From positions 7,660,501 to 7,724,500 of the forward strand of contig OY821775.1 in the NCBI GenBank assembly GCA_963682175.1: a DNA stretch of 64,000 nt. Direction: 5' to 3'. Position 1 is the stretch's first letter. The number at the start of each line of letters is the position of its first letter. Source of the DNA: Triglochin maritima. Taxonomy: Eukaryota > Streptophyta > Magnoliopsida > Alismatales > Juncaginaceae. The notes beneath the pieces were generated by a model. It was given only the letters and a program-made list of their open reading frames with translations, made no database searches and was not told the origin of the DNA. A program made the position numbers and the translations under genes. This document shows, piece after piece, positions 6,959 through 55,590 of the stretch.

Positions 6959-7600
6959 CGGTCGACCGCTACAAGCACACCGGTCGACCGGTCCTCCACA
7001 CAGTACTTGGTACTGTACAAACAAGTGTGTCGGTCGAACCACGCCAACCGAATTACCGACCCATCGGTCGAACAAAAGTCATCTAGCGGTTGACCGTTTG
7101 GATGGTCTACGCTATACAATTTTATATAATATATATATATCCGATCGGTCGAACCAAGGGGTCGTTCAACCGATAACAGGAAATTCAGCATTTTGCCTAA
7201 GTGGTATTCGGTCGACCGGAACTGCTATACAGTTCGACCGAAACATCACATGCACTCTACTACTTAATTAAAATGCTCAGTCGGTCGACCGAAAGTTAAA
7301 GAGCGGTCGACCGTTTTGATGTTCGAAGCTCCCAACCGACTTAGCATCGAATAGATCGGTCGAACAAGGTTAAGGACGTTCGACCGTTTAATAAGTCAAA
7401 ATCCCCAACCGACCCATTCTCATTGTTATTCGGTCGACCGGCTAAGTGGACCCGTTCGACCGATAACAACATCACCCCTTTTCCCGCACGAATTTGGCAT
7501 AACGGTCGACCGTCCATAGACATCGTTCGACCGTTCGCGGGTACAAAATAATAAAATAATAGGATCGGTCGACTTCCCACAGGCACCGGTCGACCGATCG
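6959..7600. repeat. Paired CGGTCGACCG palindrome array in LTR A
   Basis: Palindromes or near-palindromes start at 6959 and 6981, 7065 and 7087, 7209 and 7231, 7282 and 7304, 7431 and 7453, and 7565 and 7587. Each of these pairs is exactly 22 bp apart. Slightly irregular pairs lie at 7357/7377 and 7503/7524. Pair starts from 7209 to 7503 recur at 73, 75, 74 and 72 bp. Typical second members read CGTTCGACCG. About eight perfect GGTCGACC cores are present. Confidence 0.9.
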
Positions 7601-7754
7601 TCGTCTTCAACCTCTGAATAGGTTGCAATCCGACGGGGAATTCGACACCAACGTCGATCCCCAACACTCACAAGGCTTATGTGAGTTATAATGAAGATTT
7701 GACATACCTTTTTGACGGTTGAGGAAGCCTCCCAAGCTTTGGCAACCTCTACTC

Positions 7755-7812
7755 AACTTCTTCTTCTCTTCTTCTTCTTCTTCTTCTTCTCTTCTTCTCT
7801 TCTTCTCCTCTC
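7755..7812 (+). repeat. CTT-rich microsatellite in the LTR leader
   Basis: An imperfect (CTT)n run on the plus strand, so GAA-rich in the LTR's own orientation. It lies just downstream of that LTR's presumed TATA box and probably belongs to the transcribed leader. Confidence 0.8.
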
Positions 7813-8049
7813 CGAAACTCTCTCTCACTCTCTGCTGGATCAACTGAAGAAAACGTTTTTATTAAAATCTTATCTAACTATATATAATTACCTTTTAACT
7901 CACACCTCCATCTTCTCCAATCCTACACCAACACCTCATCTCTCAATTCTTATCTAATTCCTCCACCTCATTCTTCACTAATCATGGCTTAATTAGGTTA
8001 ATTAGGTTTAGTTTAGTTTAATTTAGGTGTTTAGATTAAGGTTATTACA

Positions 8050-10109
8050 CTATCAGTCCAGACTTTTCTTATCGGAACTTTCATATTTGTACTTAAATGC
8101 TTTAATCCGAATTTTGATATTTTATTTGGACAAAATATTACTAAAATGATCTCAGTGCATATTATGGAATAATTTCTTGAGATTCTCTTTATCTCAATCA
8201 TTTTGTGTTTAAATCCATATGTTCTTCGATGATCTATGTAAGTCCATGTGATACACGCAGATGAAATAAAATACCTGACATAATATTATTCAAATATAAA
8301 GTGAGATAATTATGATGGTAAAAACAATAAATTATTATACTTATTAGTTAGTTCGTTAAAATAATTCTGGTCGAAGTGGGGTCAACTTGTTAGAACTTAT
8401 AATCTTGAAATAATTAAAATCAAGAATTGAATTATATTTTTTTGAGACTCCGTAAACGTTTCATTCATTCAGCGAACAAAGGAGTTGCCTTACAAAATAG
8501 GTTCGCTAGAGTTATACGATTAGGTTACAATAACCATTCAAAAAAAGGAGTCAGACATCATAAATCAATCCAACACGGCGAATCAGAAAATTGAATTCTA
8601 GTTGTAACCAGCTCTATCTTGCTTTTGAGTAGATGGATCGATAGAATAGATGGACGATCGAGTTGTTTGTTAATTTAGCGAAGGATATGACAAAATGATC
8701 GGATTCGTATTTGCAATTTGCCTAGTTTAGCTTTGCTAGGGCTTTAATACCCCAAATCTACCAAACTGTACTTCGCAAAAGAGTGTAGTCAATTTAATCC
8801 TAAACTTAAGGTTGAAACTATCTAAAATAAGCCCTTTGAAAAACTAGTATCACTGGTTATGGATGTCATTAGTTTGAATGAGTGAACATTCGTCCAGAAC
8901 CACGCATAACTCCAACAAAGTTTATTTTAGAATAGATACGTCATACAAATTTTAGGTTCTATTTGGATAGTGCGTGCGGTCACAAACTGTAGTTTGTGAA
9001 TTAAATTTTATTTTCTTTTAACTCTGACGTATTGGTGTGATCCAAAGTGACAAAAATGCCTTAACCATGGTTCTTTCCTTGCCTTCTCCCGACCGTCAAC
9101 GCTCTCTATTGTGAACTCTGCTACAGATCAAAACCATTTGGCAGTCGTTGGTAGCGTTTATGTATTCTCAATCTCACCCTTATTTGATCTTTTAAACTTC
9201 TCCTTGTTTTCTTACTACAAGTACTTTAAAGAAAACGAATGCTATTGATAATTGATAATTGAAATTGAGTTTGTAACTTCTAATTTACTTAATCCTAAAA
9301 TGCCCAATTAAGTTATCTCAACTTACCATGCAATTACGTTTACATACTTATTATTGGGCGAAGAGGATTTTTTTGTCCCTGTGACATAAATAAGTAATAG
9401 TGTGAAATTGATGTTCTTCCGGCATATATAAAGGTTCCAACAGCTGTATTATCTGAATGAGACCTTCGACCTAAACCTCATTAACAAATATCCATACATC
9501 TGGACGAGTTGACAAATGGAGTCATTTTCTATTACACAATTTAATGTGATTATTAGTCAGTGGCAAACAAGGAAATCTTAGCTGAGGTTGGAAACTTGAT
9601 AAAATCATCAACATGTATAATAATTGAAATCTCGAGCTATCGAACAAAATCATTGATAAATAAATAACGTATAATACGTACTTCACCACCCGAATCAATT
9701 ATGTGGGTTATATATGCTCGTGACATTGCAAACAAAATTTGGAAATAGTATTTATAGATGCCATCCACCAACATGTGGGGTATTGAACTAAACTTAATGC
9801 TAACTACCATCACCACCATTGGTGTCACCCTTTAATGCTCATGGTCGTTTGAGAGGATAAAGAGTGATGTTGCAATTTGCATGGATCACATTTGAGAAAC
9901 ATCCACCTTCATATCTAAAGAATCAATATACAATTCTCTTTCTAAAAAGATGGCCAAGTTTTAATGTGGATGGAGATAAGGATTGCACAAACTTACAGAT
10001 TCTATGCTTACTGCTACAAGCTTTACAGCTGTTCGGCACATATATTGAACGTTTATGGACTTATGGTTGTAGTGGATTTTGCACCTAACAAATAGTTGGT
10101 GGTATACAA
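8050..10109. other. Intergenic; possible LINE 3' tail near 8436-8600
   Basis: No gene is seen. At about 8436 a T-run is followed by a block containing CGTAAACGTTTCATTCATTC. Read backwards, this resembles the 3' end plus poly-A of a plant LINE, but no reverse transcriptase is present. The rest is unstructured AT-rich DNA. Confidence 0.3.
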
Positions 10110-10692
10110 ACTGTTGTCTTGATTTTGTGACAAATCCGGATATCTGATGAGTTGATTTTGTGAGACATACTGATATCTTTTGCCTTGATCTTGTGAGATA
10201 TCTGTACATTTGATGTGTTAATTTTGTGAGACATCTGAATATTTATTACGTTGATTTTGTAAGACATCTGGATATCTAGATATCTGTTGTATTGACATCT
10301 AGATATTTTATACGTTGATATCCGAATATCTGTCTGGATGTGTGTGAGTATGTAATATATCTGGACAAATACAATGAATATAAAAGGCACCACTATTACC
10401 TTGCATTAAATGTGGTGAGAGAATGTCAACATATTTGGATATCTATCTGGATGTGTGTGAGTATGTATATATCCAGACAAATACAATAGATGTAAAAGGT
10501 TGTCACCACAATTACCTTACATTAAGTGTGGTCAGAGAATATCATGACTGATGAGAAATTAAATAATAATTTCTACACATGAGTGTCTTGCATTTTAGAG
10601 TGATATCTAAGAAATACAACGATGAGCATGAAAAATGTCCAAGTGGATTGTCGCTCTTGGATTGGTATTGCTTCATGTTCCCCGTGTGCAAC
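10110..10692 (+). repeat. Dispersed repeat with internal minisatellite, direct copy
   Basis: The first 220 bases hold about six degenerate units of 30-35 bp, each built on TTGATTTTGTGAGACATCTG and GATATC. An internal duplication follows, in which the segment with CTGGATGTGTGTGAGTATGT occurs twice. The remainder to 10692 matches the reverse complement of 2567-2860. The family is unassigned, and I found no terminal inverted repeats or target duplication. Confidence 0.75.
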
Positions 10693-10740
10693 AAAAGTGT
10701 CCAATATGGAGCCCACCCAGCATTATCCTATCAAATTTGA

Positions 10741-12606: not shown

Positions 12607-14478
12607 TTTGACGCGGTTTGAAAGTGTTTTCATAAATGATATGATTAATTTTAATTATTAGAGGAATTGTGTAATTATACTACACGTACTACGGGTTGTT
12701 ACGAATGGGGATCAAACATAAAAATTGTTATTGGTTGTTTACATGACAAATTTTAAGATTCATATAGAAAGTTTAAAATAATTCCGTGCAAAACGTAATG
12801 AGACATGATATAAGTGTTGAATAGTGAAAATCATGAATTTCACGTGTTATAATTTTATATCACGTGTTAGAATGAACGTGAAAATTGTGAATTGCATACA
12901 ACTTCTATCTAGTAAGCAGAACATAGCATGAGTGACTAAAAATATGAATCATATGTATTATATAAGTAATATGATTAGATCATTGTAACATAATATCATG
13001 TGTTTGAATGAATTTAAATTTGTAGCAATATTTTTGTTATTTTCAACAAAATGACGTTTTATTTCGATCACACGAATCACCTAATCCTTTAATTTTTTTA
13101 TATGCATTTACAATTCGTATCGTAGATCACATCGAACGACTGGATTTTAAGAAACACGAGGGAACTTACATAAGTTTAAATAAGCCCTGAATTTATTCCA
13201 TCATTGCCCAATTTAATATTTCTGTTTGTTGCAACAACTAAATTAAAGTTGAGATGTTTAACTAATGTACTTTAATTAAGTAGCAAAATTTTATTGTGCC
13301 AAGTAAGATAAAATGAATAATAAGTTCCATATAAGCGCAATACTTTTGTGGTTTTTAAAATACTTTTGAGTTTAAAAATAGTTTGAGTTCATGCAAAAAA
13401 GCTAATGTTGGATTGATTAACTTCAAACAATTGTTTAATAACAAATTTATTTCTTTTGGTTGGTAAATAGTGCAAAGTTTCCACTTTGCAATAATAGAAT
13501 TATTTTCCATCCGAAGAGGTCAATGCTCCAATTTTGAACGAATTCTTAGAGCATCGGCCGATACCAAACAAACTTGTACGTCTTTTACAGGAGTCTAGTA
13601 TTTTTTTCGAAGCAAAATCTACAACCCCCCCCCCCCCCCCCAAAAAAAAGGGTACAAGTCCGACTATGTGTCATACTTTCTTCGGTGGGTTGGTTATTTG
13701 TAAGTCGGTGCATTTTTCAATAGAAATACATATCTTTAGATGCAAAATGTACACAAATTTGATTGCGAGATGCACGTGAACTCAGCATAGGATATATCAA
13801 CGATTAGTTGAGAGAACACTCTCGACCAGAGATCGTGAGATTTGTGATCATTGATGTTTGTTGGATAAATGTCTTTTTTATTGTTTACGATTATTATTTT
13901 GTTTGTTTAAGTGATTTGGAATTAATGCTTGAGTTAATGACAAAATAACTTCAATTTAAATCGAACCTAAATATTAAAACACATACATTTTTAGCCACAA
14001 TAGCCTTCAAATGAAAAAAAATAATATTTTGATATAAGAAATCGTAATTGTTCTCAAAGTTAAAGTGTAAACAATATTAATAAATTTATAAACAATGAGT
14101 CGATTAGAAGAAAAAGAGTAATAAAAATCCTCCCGTCGTCTAACTTTACGAAAACCGAATGCATGTAAGTTTTATAGTAGAAACATTAAAGTATAAGGTT
14201 TTGATTACAAAATTTCCATTCTTTCATCTTAAAACCACAATGCAGAAGAATAGGAACCTAAACGTTTTGTCACAACACCAACACCATAACCATAGCTGCT
14301 TGACTTGGGACGGACCGAACACGAAGGGCAGAGCCGGACAGCAACGTCACGCAACTCAGACTCTTCCACCTCAAGCTTCGAGATTCTAAAAAGGAATTTG
14401 GAGGCCCGAATCAGCGCTTAGAAGGTGGATCCGGTGTTCCAATCGCACTGTCAGGCGCGCGGCCACGACATAGGATTC
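12607..14478. other. Intergenic, no gene seen
   Basis: AT-rich DNA with a homopolymer C-run near 13625-13641 followed by an A-run. The stretch from about 14280 becomes GC-richer and leads into the 11-bp array, so it may belong to the same unrecognised element. Confidence 0.4.
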
Positions 14479-14862
14479 ACGCGATTTTGACGCGAAACCG
14501 GCGCAGGATGCGGGAGATTTTCGACGCGGAATTCACGAAATTTTGACGCGGTTTGGACGAGGCACAAGCGCGTTTTGGACGTGCCATCGACGCGAATGTG
14601 ACGCTCTCCTGACGTGGAATCCCCACGTTTTGGACGCGGCATTTTCGAAGGATCAACGCGTTCTCTACGCCGGATCCACGCGTTTTCAACGCGCGATCAA
14701 CGCTTTTTCCACGCGAAACCGACGCGACATCAACGCGTTATTGACGCGATTTCAGCACGGTTTTGACGCGTTTTCAACGCGGGATCGACGTGTTTTTGAC
14801 GCTGAACCGACGCAAGATCGACGCTATATTGACGCAATTTTGACACGGTAGACACGCGGTAT
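14479..14862. repeat. 11-bp ACGCG tandem array
   Basis: About 33 units of ACGCG followed by six variable bases. The motif starts at 14711, 14722, 14733, 14744, 14766, 14777, 14788, 14799, 14810, 14821, 14832 and 14843, all multiples of 11 bp apart. Upstream units such as ACGCGAATGTG and ACGCTCTCCTG keep the same phase with few slips. Because three units make 33 bp, reading frames stay open and produce spurious proteins with an 11-residue repeat. Confidence 0.93.
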
Positions 14863-16040
14863 TTCGACGTAGGTTTGATGCGGTTGGAGGCGAAATCCAC
14901 CCCATTTATTTTACCCTAAAATTCACGTTTTTAATTTTTTAACACATTTATTTGGGATTTTGGTTGCGGTTTTATGTGATTTTGTGCTGTTTTTAATGGG
15001 GTATTTGGCATTGATTTTGTTTTGTTTCCCGCATAGTACTGTCGACGGATTTGGTTCCTTTCATCTTTAGACTTGGCAGTAATTGTGACAATATAAGAGA
15101 TGGATGACTTTGTTTGTGGCGATTTAGACTCGGCACTCTGCACATGTGGTTGTGGCTCCTGCGGTTTCTTGACTTCTTCCTTCAATGATATACAGATTTC
15201 ATTCTTCTTCCATATATGTTGAGATATTTGAGTCCATTCATGATCCAAAATCTATATTCAGTTTGGATCAGCCAACGATATTATTAAAGTTTTTAGTCTT
15301 CCCATGGAGAGAGATAGCATGAAAATAATCAATTGAGGTCTTTGAATTTCATGCTACCATGAAAAGATAGCATGGTATTAAAAAGGTTTTCAGTTTGACA
15401 TTGGAAAGTTTTTAATGTTACAAAGTAGATATGCAAAACTGATAGTACCTGTGGTTGCTTTTCAGCATCAGATCATTTGGGGTCTTTTGAATTTCACTCG
15501 TCCCTCGTATAAGTTTTTTCTCCCTCTTAACATTAATTCCCTAAACTTTGATTGCAATTTGTGAAGTAGACATTTCGAAGCTGAAGAATTAAGATTGCAG
15601 TAGACAAATTGCATCAGGAGAGGCAAATTTCACTTTGTGAGGGATCTAATTATTTTCCCCTTTATAATGTGACGACTCTAATGTTTACTTCCTTCTTTTT
15701 ACATGTACTAGCTTCTTTCCTTTTTTTCCTATTTTGCATGTAATATGCTGATTTATATATTTGCCATATTATATGTTCCCAATGACCCCATTATTGAGTC
15801 TCACCGTTAAGCTATTGATTGGCTTATTAGCTTGCAGAGTTTATTTATTTGTGTGTAATTTCAGTCGTTTGGGTTAAGTGATATTTAGGTGTCTCTCACC
15901 CCAGGTTTTTGTCTCTACAATGCTATACACGAGTAAGTCTTTATCTCTCTTTTCCTTGCTTTCAAGTGCTTAGCTTATCACTTCGCTTTGTACGTTTGAA
16001 AGTCTTTTAACCTCTTTTTAACCTTCTCTTCTTTTGTTGT

Positions 16041-16096: not shown

Positions 16097-16101
<5 letters not shown>

Positions 16102-21995: not shown

Positions 21996-22002
<7 letters not shown>

Positions 22003-28044: not shown

Positions 28045-30246
28045 GTTTTAGAAAATTTAAAATTTATCAACGAAGGAATCACAAGACATAAAACCAAGCA
28101 ACGCAGGACCGTTACTCATAAAAATATCCAAGATGTGCACCATAATACATTAGAGTTGTCAAAAGGTACGACTACATCAAGTACAAGGAAGTATAAATAC
28201 AAGTATTCATACAACCTAGGAAAATACGAATGAGGATCCGATCCCAGAGTGCCCTCGTCCTCGGTCTCCACCCGTCAGAATCTACTGCGGTTTTGAAATA
28301 CAAACATAAACAATGCATGAGTTTCCCCAAGGAAACCCCGTATACCAAACTTACCTATATGCATGCTCACGATACAGAAATGAACCTAGCATACTAGTAT
28401 AACATGACATTGTATATAATGCAATCTGTAAACATCACCCTCCAAGGGTCAGTAGGACATCTGTCCACCAGTCCATCAATCCATCATTGGGTCACCTATA
28501 GGGACCTACCGTAGGCACATAAAGTCTTACGGAAAGTAAGCAACGTACCCCATACGCGGCTACACTAATCATGGGTTTGGTGAGACACATTCACACGCCC
28601 GCATCAGTAGTAGTAACAGATCTATATCCGTGGTCAACACCACACCGACAGATTCGTCGCTCTGGTTGTTTCATCTCACATGGTTGTGCCACAGCTAAGC
28701 TACCTGCCGGAATACATCGTCGGTCAGTATACACCCGCTGGAACAACATCGACCGCGGTATCTCGTCCGAAACAACATTCCTGCCGGAACAACATCGGTC
28801 GGGACATCTCGTCCGGAACAGCATCAGATGGTACAATATCGTCATCAACGTTAGTCAAAGTTATCCGTCGCCAATAAGGTCGGTCAATCGACTCGTTCGG
28901 ACCGAAGTCTGTCAAGTCATCTCCGTAGAGCCGTGCAACATAGTGCATTGGGATCCGCGATCCCTCAGGTCTACTACTTTAATAGGAGTCAAGTAAAACA
29001 TATACTATGCCACAGTCTATAATACAAAGGTGACACGTCCTGAGTGTCCACACTCTTCCACACGAAGGTCCCTGGGCAGACACGAGCAACAAACCCACCG
29101 TCACCTCCCGGCTCACGCTCTATGTGAGGACACTCCAGAAGGACAAAGACTCGGTCTTGGGCCCAAACAGTCAACCGAAAAAGGTATATCGGTCGATCAT
29201 TTCCCAAAGGACCGATCGACCAGACGCCTACAATTGGTCGAGCTCTGGGCCCACGACTTCAGTCCCAACAATCGAACAAAATGTGGAAACCGGTCGACCG
29301 CTTCATGGTCAAAATCCGGACTAAGACTATGTCAAAATCAAGGCAATCGGTCGAACGACTCAGGGGCCCGTTCGACCGAAAACAGGGCCTCTCCTACAAT
29401 CATCAAGTCATAAACGGTCGAACCATCATCCAATGGTCGACTGAACATTCATTATACTTCAGTCATCGAACATACCATAATCTACAGCAGTCGACCATTA
29501 AGATGGTCAACGCTCGGTCCAACCTAAAATCACAAGGCAACGGTCGAACGACTCAGGGGCCCCGTTCGACCGAAAACAACAGACTTCTCCAACCCACCAA
29601 AATATGCTCAACTGGTCGACCACCGCGAGGCATCGTTCGACTTGTGCTGGGTAAAATCAAAGATTTACATTAAGAATGGTCAATCGCAAATATACACTGA
29701 TCGATCGTTAGCCAACAACTACCTTACCTTTGCCAAGTATTACTTGTTGCCCTCGTCGCCGGCGAGGTCTCAGACCTCCGGCGACAAACCAAACCTTCAC
29801 ACGCGCTTGTGTGAGCAAAACTCTAATGCAAGAACTTGGCATACCTTTCTTACGAGGTTGCCGAAGAACGTCGGAGCTCCGTTCGTCACCTACTCCGATT
29901 CGCAACCTTCGAACGCTTGTCCTCCGACAGCTAACCACTACGCCTTGTTCCCTCGTGTTGATGATGCAACTCCACCTTCACGCCTCTGGTAGCACCTCCG
30001 GTCACCGGGCAAGAGAGGAAAAGGGAGGGAGGGTTGAGTGGAGAAGAGTGAGTGAGTGAGAGAGAGAGAGAGAATAGTGAGGTGAGGTGAGGTGTTTCCT
30101 TTAAATAACCCAAACCAAACACCCCACCCATACCTCTCAACACTCTGCACCATCCCCCTACACCCCCAGCCCATACTTCCCTCACATCTCCCGATCCCAA
30201 CACCCACTAAAACCGGGATTAGCCCTTAATCTAGGTTTAGGATTTC
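28045..30246 (-). mobile_element. Solo LTR-like element, family 1, copy B
   Basis: It has the layout of copies A and D. Left to right these parts are the end block near GAAAATTTAAA, the CTCGTCCTCGGTCTCCACC and GGAAACCCCGTATACCAAAC blocks, a CCGGAACAACATCG minisatellite (28730-28830), the GTCGACCG-type array (about 29190-29650), and the GA-rich leader with TATTTAAAGG read on the minus strand. The right border near GGATTTCA (30246) and the left border are less certain than for C and D because no target duplication is clear. Confidence 0.55.
29193..29645. repeat. CGGTCGAAC / CGTTCGACCG pair array in LTR B
   Basis: A degenerate version of the palindrome pair array. Members are often split as CGGTCGAACG and CGTTCGACCG, 21-22 bp apart around a conserved GACTCAGGGGCC spacer that occurs twice (near 29350 and 29545). 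Only two perfect GGTCGACC cores remain. Confidence 0.8.
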
Positions 30247-31217
30247 AGAGTTTTCCAATTAAAAGAATTTTCAAACAGTTTTCTGGTTTCTAAATGTTTT
30301 TTTTCTAGATATATGTTAAAGGCAACCTTGATAAATTTTCCTCTGACAATTTTAAACTAGGTAATAAAAGGTTTCATTAAAAAAGTTCTCTTATATTGAT
30401 GATATTGTTTGTGAGACCCATCCAAAATCCCTCGTCCAGTACTGCTATTTAAGAGGTTGAGCCTTCTAGATCACAATAAACCACACTAATTTAAACAAAC
30501 ACATGAGCTAAGCCAACATGACATTTCACCTTCTGTTACTACAGAAAGATACTAAAACAAAACCAAACACAAGCAAGCTGAATTTGGTGGTTTTCTCCAA
30601 GGCCATGTGGTTTTAGTTGAATTGATGTGGTTTTTTAAAGGGTATTATATAATCAAATCACGTAAACATAGACACATACTTTTGCATTTCGCAGTTTATA
30701 GATTCTCAGTCTCATAGTAGTCAAAGATAGAATTCTCTTCTTGGCAAGGAAATGATGAAGTTAGAGTCGAAAGAAAAACACAAAAGTAAAATAGTTTTTT
30801 TCTTTCTTCTGTAGAGAACGGGCTTAATTATATGCTTCCATAGGCTAACCTATTCATGCATGGTCGTTGCTCCTCACATGCATGCCGTTGTTGCCCCTCA
30901 ATTGCGGTCCGTATTCGTCGACCATTTAAGCTAGCTTAGTTTGTAATAAATGTTTTTTTGTAGTAATTGATGGAACTAACAATTTACCGCTTTAACAACA
31001 TAAACTACAAGCAATCATTGTTGCCAATGCAACATCAATGATTTTAAATGATCATCAAGGAAACAATAGGATTCCTCTACGTGGAATGCTGATTGAATCG
31101 AAATTATGGTTTTGTAATCTTACCGCAGGGATGTGTAAATGGTTCAACCACAGCTTTCCAGACTTGGTCGTCCATCCAAAAAAAAAGGATCCTTCTACGT
31201 GAATATGTTTAATCCAA
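30247..31217. other. Intergenic, no gene seen
   Basis: AT-rich, with no recognisable coding or repeat unit. Confidence 0.4.
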
Positions 31218-34124: not shown

Positions 34125-34460
34125 ATTAAGAAAGAGTAGTTATAGACGGACGCGCGCGTCACGGACGCACCTTACGTGGATCTGTACAGCTCAGATATTT
34201 TTCTTTGAGTCAGCGTCCAGTCAGCGAAATTTCTCTTCGCGCGTTTTTGTCTTTTTAAAAAACGCCGGTTCCCAATACACAGATAAGACAGTGTGCAGAC
34301 CCTAGGACATCGTGCAGTCTCATTATTCGTGCAGAGCCCACACTTATCATAATAAAATATTTGTTTTTAAGTTTTACGTTGAATCAACTTAATTTGTCTA
34401 GCTTACTTTATGTGTGTGCAGTTTACATTATGTGTTTGTCCTGTTAACGTTATGTGTCTG

Positions 34461-35466
34461 TCCGGAATAAGTGTATATTGCTGTACGGAATAAGTGCATT
34501 TGCAGTCCGGAATAAGTGTATTTGTTGTCCGGTTTAAGAATAAAGTGTGTCCAGAAACGGAACATAAAGTTTGTCCGGAATAAGTTGATTTGTTGTCCGG
34601 AATAAGTTGATTTGTTGTCCGGAATAAGTGTATTTGCAGTCCGGAATAAGTGTATTTGTTGTCCGGTTTAAGAATAAAGTGTGTCCAGAAACGGAACATA
34701 AAGTTTGTCCGGAATAAGTTGATTTGTTGTCCGGAATAAGTGTATTTGCTGTCCGGAATAAGTGTATTTGCAGTCCGGAATAAGTGTAGTTGTCCAGAAT
34801 AAGAAGAAATTGTGTCCAGAAACGGAACAGAAAGTTTGTCCGGAATAAGTGTATTTGCTGTCCGAAATAAGTGTATTTGTTGTCCGGAATAAGTGTATTT
34901 GTTGTCCGGTTTAAGAATAAAGTGTGTCCAGAAACGGAACATAAAGTTTGTCCGGAATAAGTTGATTTGTTATCCGAAATAAGTGTATTTGCTGTCCGGA
35001 ATAAGTGTATTTGCAGTCCGGAATAAGTGTAGTTGTCCAGAATAAGAAGAAAGTGTGTCCAGAAACGGAACATAAAGTTTGTCCGGAATAAGTGTATTTG
35101 CTTTCCGGAATAAGTGTATTTGTTGTCCGGAATAAGTGTATTTGTTGTCCGGTTTAAGAATAAAGTGTGTCCAGAAACGGAACATAAAGTTTGTCCGGAA
35201 TAAGTTGATTTGTTGTCCGGAATAAGTGTATTTGCTGTCCGGAATAAGTGTATTTGCAGTCCGGAATAAGTGTAGTTGTCCAGAATAAGAAGAAAATGTG
35301 TCCAGAAACGGAACAGAAAGTTTGTCCGGAATAAGTGTATTTGCTGTCCGGAATAAGTGTATTTGTTGTCCGATTTAAGAATAAAGTGTTTCCAGAAACG
35401 GAACATAAAGTTTGTCCGGAATAAGTGGATTTGCTGTCCGGAATAAGTGTATTTGCTGTCCGGAAT
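34461..35466. repeat. 22-bp TCCGGAATAAG satellite with higher-order period
   Basis: The basic unit is 22 bp and begins TCCGGAATAAGTGTATTTG. Units are grouped into higher-order repeats of about 90-135 bp, each marked by one CAGAAACGGAACATAAAG block (near 34559, 34691, 34814, 34935, 35064, 35175, 35308 and 35400). Three units equal 66 bp, so all minus frames stay open and interlock as TLIPD / YTYSGQ / IHLFRT peptides. This explains the long artificial frames here. Confidence 0.95.
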
Positions 35467-35690: not shown

Positions 35691-35899
35691 AAAGTTTGTC
35701 CTGTTTTGTCCTGTTTATGTAGAAAGATTGTCCTGTTTATGTAGAAAGTTTGTCTTGTTTATGTAGAATGTTTGTCCAGTTTATGTAGAAAGTTTGTACT
35801 GTTTATGTACAAAGTTTGTCCTGTTTATGTAGAAAGTTTGTCCTGTTTATGTAGAATGTTTGTCCAGTTTATGTAGAAAGTTTGTCCTGTTTATGTAGA
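35691..35899. repeat. 22-bp GTAGAAAGTTTGTCC tandem array
   Basis: About nine or ten units, each a 22-mer containing TTTATGTAGAAAGTTTGTCC. AAAGTTTGTCC also occurs in the larger array upstream, so the two arrays may share an origin. Confidence 0.92.
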
Positions 35900-36940: not shown

Positions 36941-38823
36941 TGTAGGATCTTAATCCTTGATTAGTGGGTTAATTGTGTTTAGGTGGTTGATGAGTGTTTG
37001 ATGGTTGTGGTGAGGTGGAGGCTTGGGATTGGTGGAGGAAAATGTGAGGGTACTTAAGGGTGCAACCCATCCTTTCTTCTCATTCTCCTCTTTAAAACCT
37101 CACTCTCTTGAAACATCTCTCTCTCAGCCTCTGAAAACGATGGCGGCGTGTGGTGAGCGACGAAGAAAAAGGAGGAGTCAGTGAAGTCGAAGGAGTTCGT
37201 GATCGTTGCTTGGAGAAAGAACTCGTCGGAGAAGCTTGTTCACGTAGTGGTGCTTGTCGTGGTTCTTCAAAGGCTTCTTCAAGCATTAAATGTATGTCAA
37301 ACTTCTCTCTAATACTCACCCGAGGTGTGTGAGTAGCCGATTTAGTCGACAATGGCTGTTAGGCTCGTCAGAAGTTGATGTGCAGCAGGTTGCTGCTGAA
37401 TAATGGTCGACTGGCGTGTGCGTTGGTCGACCGATGTCAGTGTAAATGTGGGTTTCTGTCTTGCACCGGGCGAACAATGCATTTGGGCGGTCGACCAGTT
37501 ACGCATTTTAGGTGGACTCTGTTACTTTTGGTCGAACGAGTCCCCTTTGTCGTTCGACTGGGTGCATTGTGGTAAGTTGGTTGGGGGCATAAACCTTTTA
37601 AACAGTCGACCGCTTTGTGATCTGTTCAACTGATTGTACTTGTAACTAAGTTGGTTAGGGCATAGACCTTCTTAACGGTCGACTGCCTTTATGATTTGTT
37701 CGACCGATAACTTAAGTTAACTTATTGATTGTGCGACCGTTTGTGTGATGGATCGACCGTTGTGTTCTGTATCCAACCGGTAGAAGTTGAATTTGATATT
37801 TGAAGTCCCTGTTATTTTCGGTCGACCGGGTCCTCTTTGTCGTTCGACCGTTGTGACGATTATTTTAATGATAATTGTGGCGTAGACCCTCCAAACGGTC
37901 GAGAGCCTGTGACCTTCTGTTCGACCGATTGATCGTTTTGTTAGTTGAACCCGGGAGTTGACCTTCCAAATGGTCGATCGCCTATGACATTTGGTTCGAC
38001 TGTGGTATGTTGGTTTTCGTTCGACCGGCTAGGTGATGGTTGAACCATGCATGTTTTTTAGGGAACTGGTCGACCGTGGTGATTGGTTCGGTCGACCGTT
38101 GTTGCCATGTTTTTGTGTTTGTGGTGTGTGTGATCGGCTTTGAGGGCAACGAGTTCACCGGTCCTTTTGGGGCAAAGGAAAGGACATGCCAGCCTGATAG
38201 CGATCATGTGGTGAGTGGTGGCTTTACAGAGTGAGAGGTGGCTCTACGGAGCGAGTTGTGGCTCTTTTGAGGGAGCGACTGTCCTTGTGAGGTAGGGTTT
38301 GTTGGCCGACAATGTTCTAGCAGGTGTCTTGTGTGCACGTATGGTGTGGGTGATGGGTGAGAGGACCCTAGAACTTGTCTGTGGATCGTGTCTGTTGTGG
38401 TTGGGAGAGAGGTCCTTAAAGCTTAGTATTGACGACGATGTTTTACAACTAATGCATTTGTACCATTTTTTATTGTTGTTGTTTGGTTCATATATGTGTT
38501 GGGATTTTGACATACAAAGTTTCTTATGGAAACTTAGACATAGTTGCATTTTTACTTTTCATACCGTGATTGGCGTTAGATGGTGGTGACCGCGGAGGAG
38601 CGCACCTGAGACCAGATCCTGCTTGTCCCTTAGTTTGGAGGTTGTAGTGATTACTTGTGCATTTTTGTTGTAATCTTTTGATGTAATCACACTTTTGAAA
38701 AACTCAAATATATTATATATATATTGGTGCTCCTCGTGATTGTGTTTTTAGTAATATCCTCGTGTGGCTTTGTTGATTGTCTTTATTTATTTTAAAAAAA
38801 TTCACTTTTTTTAGGATGTTACA
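36941..38823 (+). mobile_element. Solo LTR, family 1, copy C
   Basis: It begins TGTAGGATCTTAATCC and ends GGATGTTACA, with a perfect 5-bp duplication ATATA (36936-36940 and 38824-38828). In its own orientation it has a TTTAAAACC TATA-like site near 37092, a CT-rich leader to about 37140, the GTCGACCG array (37404-38110), a GGTGGCTCT-rich minisatellite (38210-38270) and the GACCGCGGAGGAG block near 38590. No gag or pol is present, so it is a solo LTR left by recombination. It is the best-defined member of the family, and it is inserted only 61 bp beyond the duplication of the Mutator-like element. Confidence 0.85.
37404..38110. repeat. Palindrome pair array in LTR C
   Basis: Pairs such as TGGTCGAACG/CGTTCGACTG (37529 and 37551, 22 bp apart) and CGGTCGACCG/CGTTCGACCG near 37820-37850 repeat at about 60-75 bp. 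Five perfect GGTCGACC cores remain, the last two 22 bp apart near 38070-38090. Confidence 0.88.
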
Positions 38824-43360: not shown

Positions 43361-43585
43361 TACGGGCGTCCGACGGAGCCGTCCCCACGTAGGAGGGGGC
43401 GTCTGGCTAAGACGCCTCCCCCATAGGGGAGGCGTTTTACCCAGACGCCTTACCCATCGGGGATGCGTTTTACCGAGACGCTCCGCCCATGGGACAGGCG
43501 TCTGTGTAAGACGCCTCCCCCATTGGGGAGGCGTCTTAGCCAGACGCCCCCTCCTACGTGGGGGTGGCTCCGTCGGACGTCCGTA
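43361..43585. repeat. Perfect-looking GC-rich inverted repeat
   Basis: The left arm CGTCCGACGGAGCC...CCCACGTAGGAGGGGG, then CGTCTGGCTAAGACGCC, is mirrored almost exactly by the right arm. The two arms form a long hairpin about 100 bp high. Each arm is itself built of small GGCGTCT/AGACGCC stems. Confidence 0.9.
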
Positions 43586-44010
43586 ATTATTATTATTATT
43601 TTTTATTATTTTTTAAAAAAGATAATTGATTATAAATTTAGATAATTGTTAAATTAATTAATTAATAAGTTAATAATTACTATATTCGGATGACCGATAC
43701 CCCTTCGGTACACCGAAAATTCAAAAATTTCCAGATCCAACAATTTCAAAATCCAAAAAATTTCCAGGGGGCGCTGCCCCCTTGCCACCCCCGAACGACC
43801 TGTCGAGGTGGTATTTGTAAGTCAGGATGTTTTACCACTGGGGGATTTTGGAACTTAAAAAATGTTGGATCTAGAATATTTTTGAATCTTCATCACTTGC
43901 AAAAAAACTCATTGTAATCCGATCGGTTACCACCGAAAACTTGCAAAGAAACGTCAAATAATTTGAGATAACACACCGTATAATTTTAATTTAACAAAAA
44001 AATTAAAAAA

Positions 44011-44236
44011 AACGGGACGTCTGGCTAAGACGTTTGTACCATCGTGGAGGCGTCTGGCTAAGACGCCTCCACCATGGTTAAGGCGTCTTAGCTAGACGCT
44101 TAGACCATGGTAGCGGCGTCTGGCTAAGACGCCTGTACCATCGTGGAGGCGTCTGGCTAAGCCGCCTCAACCATGGTGGAGGCGTCTTAGCCAGACGCCT
44201 CCACGATGGTGCAGGTGTCTTAGCCAGACGTCCGAG
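44011..44236. repeat. GGCGTCTGGCTAAGACGCC cluster
   Basis: About eight palindromic modules of GGCGTCTKGCTAAGACGCC type are separated by ACCATSGTGG-like spacers, themselves partly palindromic. The outer ends are inverted (GGACGTCTGGCTAAGAC). Confidence 0.9.
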
Positions 44237-44600: not shown

Positions 44601-45079
44601 TAGGTGTGCACATGGGTTGGGTTCAACCGGAAACCCAACCCGAACCCGACTGGTCGGGTCGGGTTGGGTCGGGTTGGGGAGGGGTTCGGGTCAGGTCGGG
44701 TTGGGAAAATCAAAAACCCGAATTTTCGGGTTGAGGGGGTCGGGTTGACCCAACCCGAACCCGATTTTTTTTTATTTTTTTTCCCAAATAAACCGGTCGA
44801 CCGAACATCACTCGGTCGACCGTTTCCAACCCGAAAATTTCGGGTCTTCAAGCCACCGGTCGACCGTTTAAGCACCGGTCGACCGAACCCGACCAAGTTT
44901 GGGAGAAAATTTCCGAATTCGGGTTCAACCCGATCCAACCCGACCCAACCCGAAAATTTCGGGTCGGGTTGGGTTGAACCTAAACCGGTTCGGGTTCGGG
45001 TTGGGTTGGGTTTTTTCCCAACCCGAAAATTTCGGGTTGAGTCGGGTTGAAGCCCAAACCCGACCCATGTGCACCCCTA
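44601..45079. mobile_element. hAT MITE rich in CAACCCGA, with GGTCGACCG inserts
   Basis: Flanked by a perfect 8-bp duplication GACTCACA (44593-44600 and 45080-45087). The ends are TAGGTGTGCACATGGG and, read backwards, TAGGGGTGCACATGGG. Most of the body repeats CAACCCGA/TCGGGTTG and AAAATTTCGGG blocks and can fold back on itself. In the centre (44793-44886) are four CGGTCGACCG palindromes in two pairs, each pair 19 bp apart. No coding function; the 148-residue open frame across it is repeat DNA. Confidence 0.92.
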
Positions 45080-45087
45080 GACTCACA

Positions 45088-48509: not shown

Positions 48510-49024
48510 AAAAATTATTACATATTCAGGTTCCGTCTTCGTTTCCTGAGAACCGGTCAGCGCAAACCATTACCAATAGAATACCCATAACGTTGTTTTC
48601 CAAGAGGACGATAACACCGAGCGAGAGGCGAGATGAGGAAATTATGAAAATGAAATTAGGTAGATTAGAATATATATAAAACGAAATCATATTTATTGTG
48701 ATCTTAGATGACGTCATACCACTTTCACCTATTAAACTAATTTAGTGCGCAAAACGGGTTTATCATGGTTTGTGCTAAGATGAGAACAACACAACATTAG
48801 GTACCGATTATTAGGTATAAAGTTTTTACATGTCACATTTCTTTCTGCCCAATTTATCTTTGTATACATTTTTACAAACTTCCTTAAGTAAGGCGTAAAC
48901 AAATATTTGACTTACATGTTAAACATATTATATAACACTTTGTTTTGTAAATATATGATTGTGAGATTGGGTTATTTGATAAAAAGTGTTCAAGTACTGA
49001 GTCACGTGACTGTTACATTGTTCT
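48510..49024. other. Intergenic, no gene seen
   Basis: Short AT-rich stretch between elements with no recognisable content. Confidence 0.4.
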
Positions 49025-49033
49025 TTGTATTTT

Positions 49034-49827: not shown

Positions 49828-49836
49828 TTGTATTTT

Positions 49837-52050
49837 TGTTTTCACCGATCATTAAAGGTCACTTTGATAGGTTTATATCTTCTTTATTAGACATGTAATT
49901 TTTGTCTATCTTGGTTGCTCATATTTCAACATATATTTTTGAGTCACATGGAGTCCATTTTGAGTAGGTAGTTTGGAAAATTTATCAAATATAACTTTTG
50001 CATAAACTACAAGATCATGTAATTAATTTGAGATTCATCACTTGTGTCGAATTAGTTACCCCTTAAAACGGTAATGCGACCAAACAACTTTGCAATTATT
50101 ACATTCCTAAACAAGAACGTGATTATAATTCGAAAGGTCGGGGATGAAGTAAGCAAATAATATGGAACTATGGTTAAATTTGTAAATCTACTTCACAAAT
50201 AAAAAATCACAATGGTAATAGAACCTGATTGAAAAGGTCCAGTTGAAAATACGAACCTAGTAACCTAGGACCAATTTCAAAGTAAACACGCATAAACCCT
50301 TAATTTTCAAAACCACCCAAATCAACCTTTCTGTAAATTAACTACAAAACCAAATCGACCCGACAACGAACACCACCCAAATCCCTTCCCAGTCAACACG
50401 AAACAAATCTACTATTTCACACAATCATAATTTGCTCACGAACTCGTTCAAAACGAATTACACCGAAGTCCATTTTCTGGTGTTCCAAACCTTATTACAT
50501 TCCAGAACGTGTCACTGAATCAGATTCCAACTGCCAAACACACACAAACCTCTCGCTTTCCTTCCCATATGAAAATGGTCCCTTCCATCATCATCATCAG
50601 TCATCACCTCCCATTTTCCAATCAGCCCATAATCCTACGTCGCTAATCGAATATCGCCAACCAAGCGTCACAATGAACAGACCATGATCTTTTCCTAAAC
50701 AGGAATAAAGTCTATGATTACACATATTCACCTTGTAAAGTGGATCATAAATAATCTATTGCTTCGAGAATTATAACAACGTAATCCTTATAAAATACAA
50801 TAAAGTGCCAAAAAGATTTATTCAATATACATAATATAAGGTGTAAATAACTATATTTGTTATTTTCCTAGTCTTCTGAAGTAATCTCATCCATTCGTTT
50901 ATAGGAAAATTCAATTGTAATTCTTTTGGGGGTAGTGGGGACGTGGGGTATCCAGTTCTTTTTCTGTACACGTATATTATAAACTACTCAAAAATAAATT
51001 GTGGCGATAAATTAAATTTTAGCAGATATAATTTTATTTGATACACGTGTAGAGATCAAACTATTCGTGTTACAAATACATGATATTTTTGATTAAAATG
51101 GTTAAATCAAAATGACTCATTTGCATTTCTTATTTATTATCAAATAACAGACAATTGATTACGCATCAAATTAATATGTCAACTGGAAACAACATGTATT
51201 GTTACCACAGATACGACTACATACATTCAAACCTCTCATTCCTTAGCAAGAATGACATTCTTTTTGAGACATTAAGGTAATATTGACGCTGGCGAATATT
51301 TACATCATATTACAATTTTTTTGAAAGCAGATGGATGAGGTCAGGCGAGTCGAATTTACAGGTCGAACGAACCCAGACCAGAACCTTCGCTTGCTCTGGC
51401 AAAAGCAGATTCCACATGGAGCATAGTCGGGTGTATGTATAATACGTTCCAAGTGACATCTCACACGTCTCTCGGTTGGTTGCGGTCCTTTTGCGGAAGC
51501 AAACGTAGACAAAAGAGAGGTGTGGGTTTTGTTCTCGAATCTCGATCGGGAGCGCGCGCGTGGCGAGAGATTGCGCCACACGTGTCGGGTCAGACCGGTC
51601 AGGTTCCGTGACGCGCCTGGGCGAAGCCCACGTTCGTGGTTGCAGAGCAGAGGGTTGGTGGTAATCGGATTTTGCGTTTCCGACCAGCCGCCAACGAATT
51701 CAAAGCCTAATTCTAACATCACACTTTGACTTATGGTGGTGGTTTCTTGCATCATAAAAATACACATCATTAAAAAATAATACCGCAAAAAGGCGTTTGG
51801 CACTCGGATTATGAATTAGGATTTTTTCGAGGTACAAAATTCGGAGTTATTTTTAATGTTCATTTTACTATTGAGTTTTGTCTCATGATAGCCTCCGATT
51901 ACTGAATTATGGGAAAATATCTGCATTAATACCATTCAATTATCTAAAATACAAATATGTTTTTTCAAGTAATTGTAAAAAATGTATTTGTTTACTTAAT
52001 TATTTTTTATACTTGACTAAATACCATCATTTTTCTATTTTTTTCACCTC
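49837..52050. other. Intergenic; a GC-richer island at 51300-51750 of unknown nature
   Basis: Mostly AT-rich. The 51300-51750 part is GC-richer and keeps a 167-residue minus-strand frame open (51803-51300). The predicted peptide is Arg/Ser/Thr-rich with no motif I recognise, and the opposite strand is also open. It may be an unannotated transcript or part of an old repeat. I do not call it a gene. Confidence 0.35.
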
Positions 52051-52055
52051 ATTTC

Positions 52056-52977
52056 TGTTGGTACGAGGATTCACGATGCTACTGACACAACGACAGATTA
52101 AACGCACACAACGAAACACAAATACGAATATTGATTGCGGAAGATACTAGCTTCTGACTCTATCACAATCTTAATGCAACAAGAACACACACAAGATGTA
52201 ATAGACAAGCAAACACACAACACACCTGAAAACAACCGCGACACACGTGATTTACAAGGTTCGACAACGTGCCTACGTCCTTGGGGGTCTCCCGCAGGTT
52301 TCTTTTCCTTCAATCCACTTCTCCAACAAGAGAAGTGACCGAGATTGCAAGAAGTTGGAGGCGATTTGTCCTCCAAAGCACTCTAGATCTTTCTCTAGCC
52401 CTAATCTCTCTCAAGAAAATAATAATAATGTGTTGTTGTCAAAATTAGGGCGAAAACCCTTAAATAGTAGGCTAAATTCGTACAAGAAAACAAGCATATC
52501 GTAGGCCAAACCGTCTGCATCGGTCGACCGGATTACGGTTTTCCCGTCTAACTGCCACAATTCGGTCGACCGCGTGCCCAACACCGGTCGACCGTTCCGC
52601 ACTTCTGAATAGCACAAAAGAGACTCTGGAGATTTTTGGTCGACCGCGTGCCAAGCATCGATCGACCGATCCGCACTGCTGATCCTCGACTTGAAGCCCC
52701 TGGAGATTTTCGATCGACTGGTGCTAACTTCGTTCTGAACCCGGGAGACTCTGGAAGTTTTCGGTGGACCGCGTGCCCAGCACCGATCGACCAATTCACA
52801 CTTCGATCTGAGCCCTGAAGACTCTGGAGATTTTTCGATCTGAGCATCGGTCGACCGATTCCCGATGTTCAACGAATCCTAGCATGCTCTAGAGATTTCC
52901 GCTCGACCGAGATCCTCTCCCGGTCGACCGAATCTGCCTGTTTCTGGTACTTAACAAATATAAACCAAATTTCAACA
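52056..52977 (-). mobile_element. Solo LTR, copia-like (LTR E)
   Basis: It starts TGTTGG and ends CAACA, with a perfect 5-bp duplication ATTTC (52051-52055 and 52978-52982). TGTTGG...CAACA ends and a block with GGTTCGACAACGTGCCTACG (52258-52277) are usual for plant Ty1/copia LTRs. A TATTTAAGG TATA-like site, read on the minus strand near 52465, fixes the orientation. Upstream of it, in the U3 position, lies the palindrome array (52521-52930). No internal retrotransposon genes remain. Confidence 0.85.
52521..52930. repeat. 74-bp tandem array with paired CGGTCGACCG in LTR E
   Basis: Paired palindromes start at 52563 and 52585, 52637 and 52659, and 52762 and 52784, all 22 bp apart. Repeat starts 52563, 52637 and 52711, and then 52762 and 52836, are 74 bp apart. 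Each unit carries GACTCTGGAGATTTT before the first palindrome and CGCGTGCC after it. The design is the same as in LTR A, although the LTR itself belongs to another family. Confidence 0.92.
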
Positions 52978-53467
52978 ATTTCATCATGTGTATGTATCTA
53001 GTTAACTTTAATTTTACTTTGATATATTTTGGATGGCATTAAGATTTCTACTTTATCTTCGGAAAGTGTACATCTTAGTCAACATATTTTTGACAATGCC
53101 ATACCTCTAAGAAAATATTCTTTGGTCATATCATGAAACTTAATTTACCTGATTGTACTCAACGGGTCATCAAAAATTCAAGACATTACAATAGTTATTG
53201 CCATTAATATTTTGAAATTTATGATATTACATTAGTTATAGCCATTAAAATGTTGAAACTAAACATAGGTATCATTCAACATGTTTTAAACATAAGAAGG
53301 CCTAACAATTTGGGTTGATTGCACAACTACAGTTGTTAGAACAGAAAGTATTTGCAGCTAAAATGGATATAGACATCCTACATTTATATTTTTGTGAAGA
53401 AGTATCCAAATGGGTCAAAAGAAGTATAGTCTTCTTTTTCTACTGAAAAGTTACGTGATAAAGTAAC

Positions 53468-53955
53468 TGAACTGCTATTCATCGCCATAAAACTACTTAA
53501 ATCACCCGTACAAATTATAATTTTACCCTTCTACCATTTCTACTTATATAACTCTTCATTTTACTTTCCTAACACCACTCTCTCTTCATATTACTCTTAT
53601 ATTCACCAGAAAAAAATGTCTCGGAGGCCAGGAAAAGAACCAGCGGACACCCCGGATTACTCAAATCTGGTAAATTGTCTTATTTATTTTATTTTATTTA
53701 AAAAACAAATTGGGTTGGGCGTCCGTAGGAGACACCCGAACGAAATGGGAGGCGTCTGCGGGAGCCGCCTACCCGAACGATTGGGCGTCTCCGGTAGACA
53801 TTTTCGGGATGTTGGTACTAGGAATGCGAGTAAAACTGAGTCAAAAACCTTGTTTGAAGACACTGGACGAAATGTGTATTAATTGATTTGTTAAGGGCAA
53901 AAATGTAATTTTTGAGACGATTTACGTAGTTTTTCGACGACGAATAATAGCCCCC
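53468..53955. mobile_element. Mutator-like element, short relative (copy 2)
   Basis: The flanks TAAAGTAAC (53459-53467) and TAAAGTAAA (53956-53964) match at 8 of 9 bases. The ends, CTATTCATCGCC then AAAACTACTTAAATC and the matching right end, and the inner block GAGTAAAACTGAGTCAAAAAC are shared with 43108-44447. The GC-rich foldback core is reduced to a few GGCGTCT/GGGCGTC modules at 53718-53800. A short frame starting ATGTCTCGGAGGCC (53616) is partly shared with copy 1 but is not conserved as protein. Confidence 0.8.
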
Positions 53956-54554
53956 TAAAGTAAAGTTAACTATTCTTAAAGGTGAGTCAACCACTTGAGC
54001 TTTAAATTCTAACTTCTATCATGTATCCCAAACCACATAAAACCTCAAGTTTTTATCCTATTGAATTTGTAGAAGTGTCGCATCATGAGTTACACTTATA
54101 ATTTCAAATTAATCATAACTTCAGCGGCATAAGGAATGTAAGTGTCTGTACATATAGATTAAGAAACATATCAAAAGTGTAACATCCTCAAACAACGGAA
54201 GAATTAAAATTTTATAACATACAATCAAACAGAGAATATTACTCAAATACAAGAAATAGATGCACCAACATATATAATATATATATCTGAGTATTTCAAA
54301 AGTGTGATTACATCAAAAAGGCTATACAACAAATACAAGTAATCACTCTGACCTCAAAATGAGAGAAAACTGGATCTGGTAGCGGCACCCCTCTCTTCGG
54401 TCACCACGTCCTAGGGCCGACCACGACCTCAAAAACTAACATGCAACAATGCTTGAGTTTCCAGAAGGAAACCCAGTATGTCAAACTCTATAGTGCATGA
54501 AACGGGATCACTCTAGCTTGCAATTCTATCAACAAAGAAAAGCATAAACAACAA

Positions 54555-54900
54555 GGCTGGGCTCCAGGTGGTTTTCACCCAACCACAACACTCACAAACA
54601 GTTACGGGGGCTCCAGGGATTTTTCACCCAGCCACCGCAACACTCAACGCCATCAAGTTAGGCTCCAGGATTTTTTCACCCAACCGCAGCTACCACGACA
54701 CGACCAAGGCTCTTTCACCCAACCCTTATCATGCGGTCCATGCTCAGGCTCCAGAGCTCTTCACCCAACCTGAACGCACTATGTAGCTCACAGTCTTTTC
54801 ACCCAACCCCGCACAGACTAGCTGGGCTCCAGGGCTTTTTCACCCAACCACAACTCTCACAAAAATTACGGGGCTTCAGGGCTCTTTCACCCAACCACCG
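54555..54900. repeat. GGCTCCAGGG...TTTCACCCAACC minisatellite in LTR D
   Basis: Eight degenerate units made of GGCTCCAGGGCTTTTTCACC plus CAACC, separated by 15-35 bp of variable sequence. The corresponding part of LTR B holds a different motif (CCGGAACAACATCG), so this segment evolves separately in each copy. Confidence 0.9.
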
Positions 54901-55009
54901 CAACACTCGTGCCCACTAGCACACTTGCCGGAAGAACATCGGCACCACAACTCACCTCACACGGACGACCACAACAACCGCACCTCCAATGTGCAAATCT
55001 GGACACAAA

Positions 55010-55590
55010 CGGTCGACCGAACCAAGAGTCTCGGTCGACCAAATCTCACTAAAACAAGGCAATTGGTTCGACCGACACTCCATCAGTTGAACAGTTCTCA
55101 CCAACAACATACGATCAGTCGAACCAAAGTCAGGGATCGGTCGACCGTTTAGAAGGTCACCTCCCTGGTTCAACGAGCATAACGACCAATCAGTCGAACG
55201 GCAAAGGGGGCCAGTTCGACCGAAACCCACCAGTAAAATCCACCATCGCTAAACATGATCAATCGGTCGAACCCCCGAGCACTTTCGGTCGACCGAAATC
55301 CACCAGTAAAATCCACCATCACATCCAATCAACGCCGGTTGACCGAACCACCATCGGTCGAACCAAACCACTATTTAACTTAAGTCATTGGTCAGACGAG
55401 TCAAATAGGCGGTCGACCGTTTGAATGGTCAACGCCTCAACTGGCCTACAACAGTGCACACACAGTCGAACGACAAAGGGCCCACGTTCGACTGAAACCA
55501 ACCAGGCTTGCCTCAACATCGTTCGACCGGTGTGAGGTAGAAACCTGAATTCTCACTAGGAACGGTCGACCGTTTGCACCAACCGGTCGA
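55010..55590. repeat. Palindrome pair array in LTR D
   Basis: Pairs start at 55010 and 55032, 55116 and 55138, and 55264 and 55286, each 22 bp apart, with a further pair at 55191/55212. Pair starts 55116, 55191 and 55264 are 75 and 73 bp apart. About six perfect GGTCGACC cores remain among CAGTCGAAC and GTTCGACCG variants. Confidence 0.88.

Follow-up and report, generated by a model that had tools for sequence, protein, structure and literature searches.

Rows of regularly paired short palindromes in unrelated mobile elements of a Triglochin maritima locus

Unrelated mobile elements in a stretch of the Triglochin maritima genome carry rows of one short palindrome, arranged in regularly spaced pairs. 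All counts given here refer to a single 64-kb window of contig OY821775.1, in which the palindrome CGGTCGACCG is present in 25 exact copies, and in none of 30 dinucleotide shuffles. The only palindromic 10-mers with more than three copies in the window are CGGTCGACCG and two TA-repeat words. The exact copies are confined to six regions, namely the LTRs that we called A (8 copies), B (1), C (2), D (5) and E (5), and a MITE (4). Rows of CGGTCGACCG were already known from Sirevirus LTRs, and what is less familiar is their paired occurrence in other kinds of elements. An excess of CpG beyond the motif itself was considered and discarded, the observed/expected ratio in the arrays outside the motif being 0.44-0.99, as compared with 0.90 for the whole window.

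LTRs A-D, to which no strand was assigned, are mutually homologous and diverged. LTR A (6099..8041, TGTAACGTCC...TTACA) is solo LTR-like, with a clear left end and a right end placed by eye, and no matching target-site duplication (TSD) was found for it in 7700-8600; its array at 6959-7596 includes 12 copies with at most one mismatch (both counts for A cover the region 6400-8000). LTR B (28100..30260) has degraded ends, its limits being chosen for alignment, and five copies at this threshold in an array at about 29168-29622. The solo LTRs C (36941..38823, TSD ATATA, in the opposite orientation to A, B and D) and D (54178..56192, TSD AAAAG) are those of the four that show the hallmark of LTR retrotransposons, TG...CA ends and a 5-bp TSD, and their arrays lie at 37404-38098 (nine copies) and 55010-55593 (eight copies), respectively. 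These LTRs look like a type (TGTAAC...) other than Sirevirus, and their TGTAAC ends may be a Ty3/gypsy trait. Across 12 directed comparisons, in which nothing kept the aligner from anchoring on the motif, identity among A-D is 71-85% in motif columns versus 38-58% between motifs. In a motif-masked alignment, site coincidence exceeded the best shifted control in five of the six LTR pairs, with a tie at 2 for B-D. These comparisons show that A-D kept the motif and part of the motif positions while the intervening sequence changed.

LTR E is a solo LTR of 922 bp (52056..52977, minus strand by inferred sense, TGTTGAAATT...CCAACA) with a 5-bp TSD, ATTTC, and an array at 52521-52930 that holds nine copies with at most one mismatch and 11 with at most two. 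Within the LTR, motifs with at most one mismatch occupy positions 48-448 and are followed by a TATA-like site, TATTTAAG, at 512. The first-pass annotation had placed the array upstream of the TATA-like site in E and downstream of it in A-D; the former holds, whereas in A-D TATA-like matches flank the array on both sides. One match lies 91-105 bp from the TGTAAC end in all four LTRs, another on the opposite strand 113-156 bp from the other end in three of the four, and either would place the array downstream. With candidates on both strands, TATA-like sites were abandoned as a guide to the sense strand of A-D.

The annotation was not aware of any earlier account of such a system, but one is in print. 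Table 3 of Bousios et al. 2010 (PMC2829016), a paper drawn on here in part, as are the others cited, gives the identical CGGTCGACCG as the repeated LTR palindrome (RM) of a Vitis (grapevine) Sirevirus, with 10 copies in the LTR compared with the nine (at most one mismatch) in E. According to the same source, the RM of Sireviruses in general is CpG-rich and lies in the upper LTR half, with a TATA box after it near mid-LTR, and it is Sirevirus-specific among the Ty1/copia elements compared. E resembles this layout: it has at least eight copies of one palindrome with a CGG-CCG core, in a CpG-rich array in its upper half, and soon afterwards, near mid-LTR, TATTTAAG, a variant of the published consensus. 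It departs from it in its array start, about 48 bp into the LTR compared with 200-400 bp in most Sirevirus copies (PMC2829016). The last 80 bases of E contain no run of at least four C, a crude proxy for the C-rich integrase signal that the 17 Sireviruses of that study have some 21 bp from the end of the LTR. The anatomy of E largely fits the Sirevirus RM pattern. Further Sirevirus traits are gag-pol phylogeny, multiple PPTs and an AT/TG attachment site, E being a solo LTR, and a Pfam search for a polymerase domain gave no match in the eight ORFs scanned out of 21 of at least 140 aa. In a C2H2 protein search, no named relative exceeded 49% (Dioscorea zingiberensis) in the 120 matches listed out of 1935.

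In contrast to the published Sirevirus RM, the motif is found here also in the other-looking LTRs A-D and in a MITE, and its 22-bp pairing and 73-bp unit are without mention in the parts of PMC2829016 consulted. In the open-access literature, which was also covered for GGTCGACC, this was the only paper found with CGGTCGACCG in a retrotransposon context. A maize Sirevirus palindrome common to Helitrons, CACCGGACNNNGTCCGGTG, has also been described (PMC10760457), again at odds with the supposed novelty, although it is a different palindrome in a different plant. A likeness by description is offered by repeat cassettes that have been proposed to stem from the internal structure of MITEs.

The MITE (44601..45079, 479 bp, no strand assigned) has the features of a hAT MITE, being short and putatively non-coding, with terminal inverted repeats TAGGTGTGCACATGGG...CCCATGTGCACCCCTA and the 8-bp TSD GACTCACA on both sides; its assignment to hAT is presumed from the TSD length. 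Its four exact palindromes, at 44794, 44813, 44857 and 44876, form two pairs spaced 19 bp apart, unlike most of those of the LTR arrays, and bear out the proposal that a hAT MITE is a further carrier. Once the motif was masked, 10 runs over 9 distinct pairs detected no similarity among E, A-D and the MITE (the lowest E-value was 0.15), in agreement with the view that the array is common to unrelated transposons.

The spacing was analysed with 85 sites (at most two mismatches) from the six regions, against 2000 random placements. Site pairs 21-23 bp apart number 25, versus 5.4 expected and a random-placement maximum of 18, and those 73-75 bp apart number 22, versus 4.8 expected and a maximum of 14, so that both spacings are 4-5 times commoner than under random placement. 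The recurrence every 73-75 bp that the annotation had noticed is upheld by this comparison. The pairs had also been described as mostly exactly 22 bp apart, a slightly strong wording: when only spacings of 19-23 bp were allowed, with at most three mismatches per arm, the 35 pairs of A-E in the C+ orientation include 19 at 22 bp, 10 at 21 bp, three at 20 bp, two at 19 bp and one at 23 bp (on the opposite strand, 21 of 36 are at 22 bp), and the MITE has 19 bp. The exact 22-bp pair was also met in two viral contigs, at one place each, which we took as chance.

Among periods of 8-16 bp, 10.45-10.5 bp comes out best whichever of the four mismatch thresholds is applied. The 10.5-bp phase also beats a null in which the intervals of 20-23 and 50-54 bp are preserved, with p between 0.0005 and 0.04. 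The 27 remaining intervals, outside these two classes, show no phase (mean cosine 0.08, p 0.27). Rayleigh values at 10.5 bp are 9.6/11 for E, 7.9/19 for A, 5.0/17 for C, 2.9/16 for D, 1.1/12 for B and 2.7/4 for the MITE, so among the LTRs the signal is clear only in E, A and C, with little in B and D. The preference of the arrays for a 10.5-bp phase is uneven and comes mostly from the recurring 22- and 52-bp spacings, and the idea that all sites face one side of the helix holds in part: the period goes beyond the tandem-preserving null, whereas the remaining intervals are unphased.

In A-D, changes are unevenly distributed along the pairs: 22 pairs have 38 inner versus 11 outer changes (site-flip null, 1 in 20,000) and the 18 distinct pairs have 35 versus 10 (4 in 20,000), counts that come from related units and so are mutually non-independent. 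The inner:outer ratio is uneven among the LTRs (A 12:0, B 7:1, C 12:4, D 7:6), it weakens at looser thresholds (59:30 and 76:50), and the asymmetry is absent in E (2:4). Pooled, A-D show that the pair acts as a single dyad unit, in which the outer CGGTCGA...TCGACCG is mostly kept and the inner flanks are relaxed. One example in D, CAGTCGAACG-N12-CGTTCGACTG (55463..55494, minus strand), has arms that are off-palindrome yet mutual reverse complements.

In our view, the arrays are probably cis-regulatory, putatively protein-binding elements of the Sirevirus RM type, reused by other elements. This reading is favoured because the motif and LTR position match, and the copy number resembles, those in the consulted parts of PMC2829016, and because of the motif conservation and dyad asymmetry in A-D, the 10.5-bp phase and the lack of significant RNA-stem compensation (see below). 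It is weakened by E, with its array start at about 48 bp and no run of at least four C, and by the unevenness of the dyad asymmetry and phase, with residual intervals unphased. The paired sites, with palindromes 22 bp (about two turns) apart in units of some 73 bp (about seven turns), would be bound by a nuclear protein of the host, probably as a dimer or as two monomers placed head to head, and this protein, once bound, may drive or insulate LTR transcription. Unrelated elements might share the site because all of them gain from recruiting one host factor, or because short motif-bearing segments were captured and diverged afterwards. In a transcript, such clustered palindromes would fold as well, and they may contribute to small-RNA silencing, as has been reported in maize Sireviruses. 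More tentatively, the 32-bp dyad CGGTCGA-N18-TCGACCG, with a relaxed inner part, could be the recognition unit of one host protein, whose arrays, at helically regular spacing, were gained independently by at least three unrelated transposon classes as a shared regulatory or anti-silencing address.

That the pairs instead act in RNA, as hairpins of the LTR transcript (10-bp stems, loops of about 12 nt) that serve packaging or dimerisation or act as Dicer/siRNA templates, seems unlikely to us. The folding energy is lower than the average for 15 mononucleotide shuffles in all 10 array/strand combinations of A-E, but palindromes alone give low folding energy; the TATA-like sites near the LTR end in A-D could place the array inside the transcript, and small RNAs map onto maize Sirevirus palindromes (PMC10760457, PMC5311732), whereas a 10.5-bp phase is not required by hairpins. 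Mirrored deviations on both sides are Watson-Crick in 9 of 14 cases (9 of 15 on the other strand), a count without control, and a looser test of 46 pairs leans that way but not significantly (351 Watson-Crick versus 345.4, p 0.14). When arms were compared within and across pairs of the same element, the 32 informative pairs of the C+ strand gave 248 Watson-Crick matches versus 248.6 expected (p 0.60; p 0.41 with G-U counted), and 33 pairs of the other strand 254 versus 252.9 (p 0.44), so compensatory pairing was dismissed as proof of hairpins. An asymmetry between G-U and A-C mismatches is visible in the pair list, and was set aside because TpG and CpA counts reveal a strong difference in composition between the strands.

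Much of the spacing regularity is accounted for by tandem duplication of a 73-bp unit. As a full explanation, in which a chance palindrome was multiplied neutrally in this unit and its sharing reflects coincidence or exchange of short segments, we judge such duplication to be rather improbable. It agrees with the 74-bp tandem repeat (2.1 copies) detected by TRF in E, the local self-similar units within the A-E arrays and the unphased residual intervals, but not with the persistence of the motif where intervening identity is down to 38-58%, the same 10-mer in three element types that have no other detectable similarity, the asymmetric changes in A-D, or the near-identical motifs that recur among distant Sireviruses (PMC2829016, as far as consulted). 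Spread of the array at this locus only, by a single nested insertion or local gene conversion, is very improbable: every array of the window lies within about 49 kb, but the absence of motif-masked similarity argues against one insertion, and separate intact TSDs flank C, D, E and the MITE.

Sirevirus palindromes have been in print since 2010, across distant plants and as small-RNA hotspots in maize, but without a known binder, and PMC2829016 found no common binding factor. Newer here are the occurrence of the motif in a different LTR family and in a MITE, and the paired dyad constraint in A-D. That the palindrome recurs, in pairs, in further classes of elements, with a dyad constraint within one family, is a pointer to a trans-acting host protein, and the 32-bp dyad provides a defined probe for seeking this putative binder.

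The window (37.8% GC), which by its protein hits is flowering-plant DNA, carries cyclin-like, rotamase (PPIC-type) and ZAT-like C2H2 genes surrounded by numerous old transposons; the ZAT-like zinc-finger frame is open at 60039-61046, and its closest named relative among the best 120 of 1935 matches, from Dioscorea zingiberensis, is 49% identical. The 10-bp palindrome CGGTCGACCG occurs 25 times, against none in 30 dinucleotide shuffles of the whole window and a mean of at most 0.01 in local shuffles (200 per region, six regions). All 25 copies are confined to six regions, namely the LTRs A to E and the MITE M.

Two of the LTRs, C (36941-38823) and D (54178-56192), are solo copies flanked by 5-bp duplications, and A (6099-8041) and B (28100-30260) are related LTRs with less clear ends, pairwise identity among the four being 46.5-59.6% over the alignment. 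E (52056-52977) is a solo LTR with TGTTG...CAACA ends and the target site duplication ATTTC; A-D, which also carry the array, seem to be of another LTR type. M (44601-45079), a MITE of hAT type flanked by an 8-bp duplication, contains the motif. A transposon polymerase domain was not matched in the eight Pfam-scanned ORFs, out of 21 stop-to-stop ORFs of at least 140 aa. Unmasked comparisons of E, M and A-D gave E-values down to 3.7e-05, via the motif; masking it left no detectable similarity among them (best E-value 0.15; 10 runs, 9 distinct pairs), which bears out the first-pass annotation in its view that unrelated transposons share the array.

In A-D, identity was 71-85% in motif columns, 38-58% between motifs and 45-57% in the LTR remainder (12 directed comparisons). 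Since the motif itself can serve as an anchor in alignment, the LTRs were realigned with motifs masked, and site coincidence was above every shifted control in five of six LTR pairs, and merely equal to the best one for B-D. Because motif positions coincide in this alignment, the array seems to predate the A-D split, and to have been retained while its context changed. Outside the motif, TpG/CpA is strongly strand-asymmetric at 6900-7620 (A: CA 42, TG 20), 29150-29720 (B: CA 48, TG 14), 37390-38110 (C: TG 71, CA 16) and 54990-55600 (D: CA 61, TG 16), consistent with one G/T-rich strand.

The proposed spacings were recovered: allowing up to two mismatches, 25 site pairs are spaced at 21-23 bp (5.4 under random placement) and 22 at 73-75 bp (4.8 under random placement). 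M deviates, with 19 bp within and 63 bp between pairs. Two tandem arrays of a 22-bp unit (34451-35466 and 35705-35899) share the 22-bp interval of the palindrome pairs in unrelated sequence, the first (TRF: 45.8 copies, 70% matches) with the CpG palindrome TCCGGA in many units. Other arrays are ACGCG/ACGCGT repeats at 14474-14907 (periods 11, 22 and 88 bp) and 33-bp arrays with palindromic GGCGTCT/AGACGCC units at 43366-44234, whose flanks have a related copy at 53458-53774 and 53796-53959.

Among periods from 8 to 16 bp, the strongest phase was found at 10.5 bp for 0, 2 and 3 mismatches and at 10.45 for 1. At 10.5 bp it exceeds a null in which 20-23 and 50-54 bp intervals were kept and the remaining ones jittered (2000 draws each; p 0.0005, 0.0215, 0.018 and 0.04 for 0, 1, 2 and 3 mismatches). 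The 27 intervals outside these classes show no phase preference (p 0.27), and the Rayleigh values at 10.5 are uneven (E 9.6 of 11 possible, A 7.9/19, C 5.0/17, D 2.9/16, B 1.1/12, M 2.7/4); helical phasing is thus suggested but not proven, and the 73-bp unit in tandem duplication explains part of it. The notion that all sites lie on one DNA face is partly supported.

A pairing of the two arms as an RNA stem would predict better matches within one pair's arms than between arms of different pairs. Compensation was not detected in a loose test of 46 pairs (351 Watson-Crick pairs vs 345.4, p 0.14), nor in a stricter within-element test (248 vs 248.6, p 0.60; other strand 254 vs 252.9, p 0.44). Folding of the arrays is more favourable than that of mononucleotide shuffles in 10 of 10 combinations of array and strand, as would be expected of any palindrome array.

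The pair in A-D behaves as a dyad. Among 22 pairs (both arms with at most two mismatches, spacing 20-23 bp), where any units linked by duplication or descent are non-independent, 38 palindrome deviations fall in the inner halves, facing the pair centre, and 11 in the outer halves, an asymmetry matched by random site flipping in 1 of 20,000 trials; with distinct pairs only (n = 18) the ratio is 35:10, reached in 4 of 20,000. The most frequent deviations are at left-arm C8 (11/22) and its mirror position, right-arm G3 (12/22), left-arm G3 and right-arm C8 are invariant in this set, and the outermost left-arm base C1 varies in six pairs. By LTR, inner:outer changes are 12:0 in A, 7:1 in B, 12:4 in C and 7:6 in D; E has 2:4 (4 pairs), and looser thresholds weaken the asymmetry (59:30 and 76:50). 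The working unit of A-D seems to be CGGTCGA-N18-TCGACCG.

In E the array lies upstream of the TATA-like site, as first annotated, with motifs at 48-448 and TATTTAAG at 512 of 922. In A-D, matches to a simple TATA-like pattern flank the array on either side, at 91-105 on the TGTAAC-starting strand in all four LTRs and at 113-156 on the other strand in A, B and C, D having none before the array. Either set would place the array downstream, but both strands have candidates, and further matches lie inside or past it. In all four LTRs a conserved GTATGYCAA block precedes the array and its inverse follows (LTR positions 335-490 and 1566-1912, in the orientation of the C plus strand), so that an inverted repeat, picked post hoc from the alignment, flanks the array; the block is a possible splice-donor-like signal.

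The statement that no such system had been described does not hold. Sirevirus LTRs are reported to carry palindromic repeated motifs, 8-32 per element and with a CGG-CCG core in 12 of 13, grouped within CpG islands that precede a TATA box in mid-LTR (Bousios et al. 2010, PMC2829016), and Table 3 of that paper gives CGGTCGACCG for Vitis, with 10 copies in the LTR and two before env. In its account of the motifs no single binding factor emerges, and database comparison yielded mainly stress-related sites. In maize, small-RNA hotspots are described on Sirevirus-type palindromes (PMC10760457, PMC5311732), and the same maize Sirevirus palindrome is reported to be the commonest motif where Helitrons are structured (PMC10760457). 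E matches a Sirevirus-type array in motif and copy number and in having a TATA-like site after the array. Its array begins early in the LTR, however, and a crude test showed no C-run near the LTR end; E is therefore not counted as a proven Sirevirus. The kind of system is already known, and what appears new here are the motif array in other element classes, A-D and M, and the dyad pairing.
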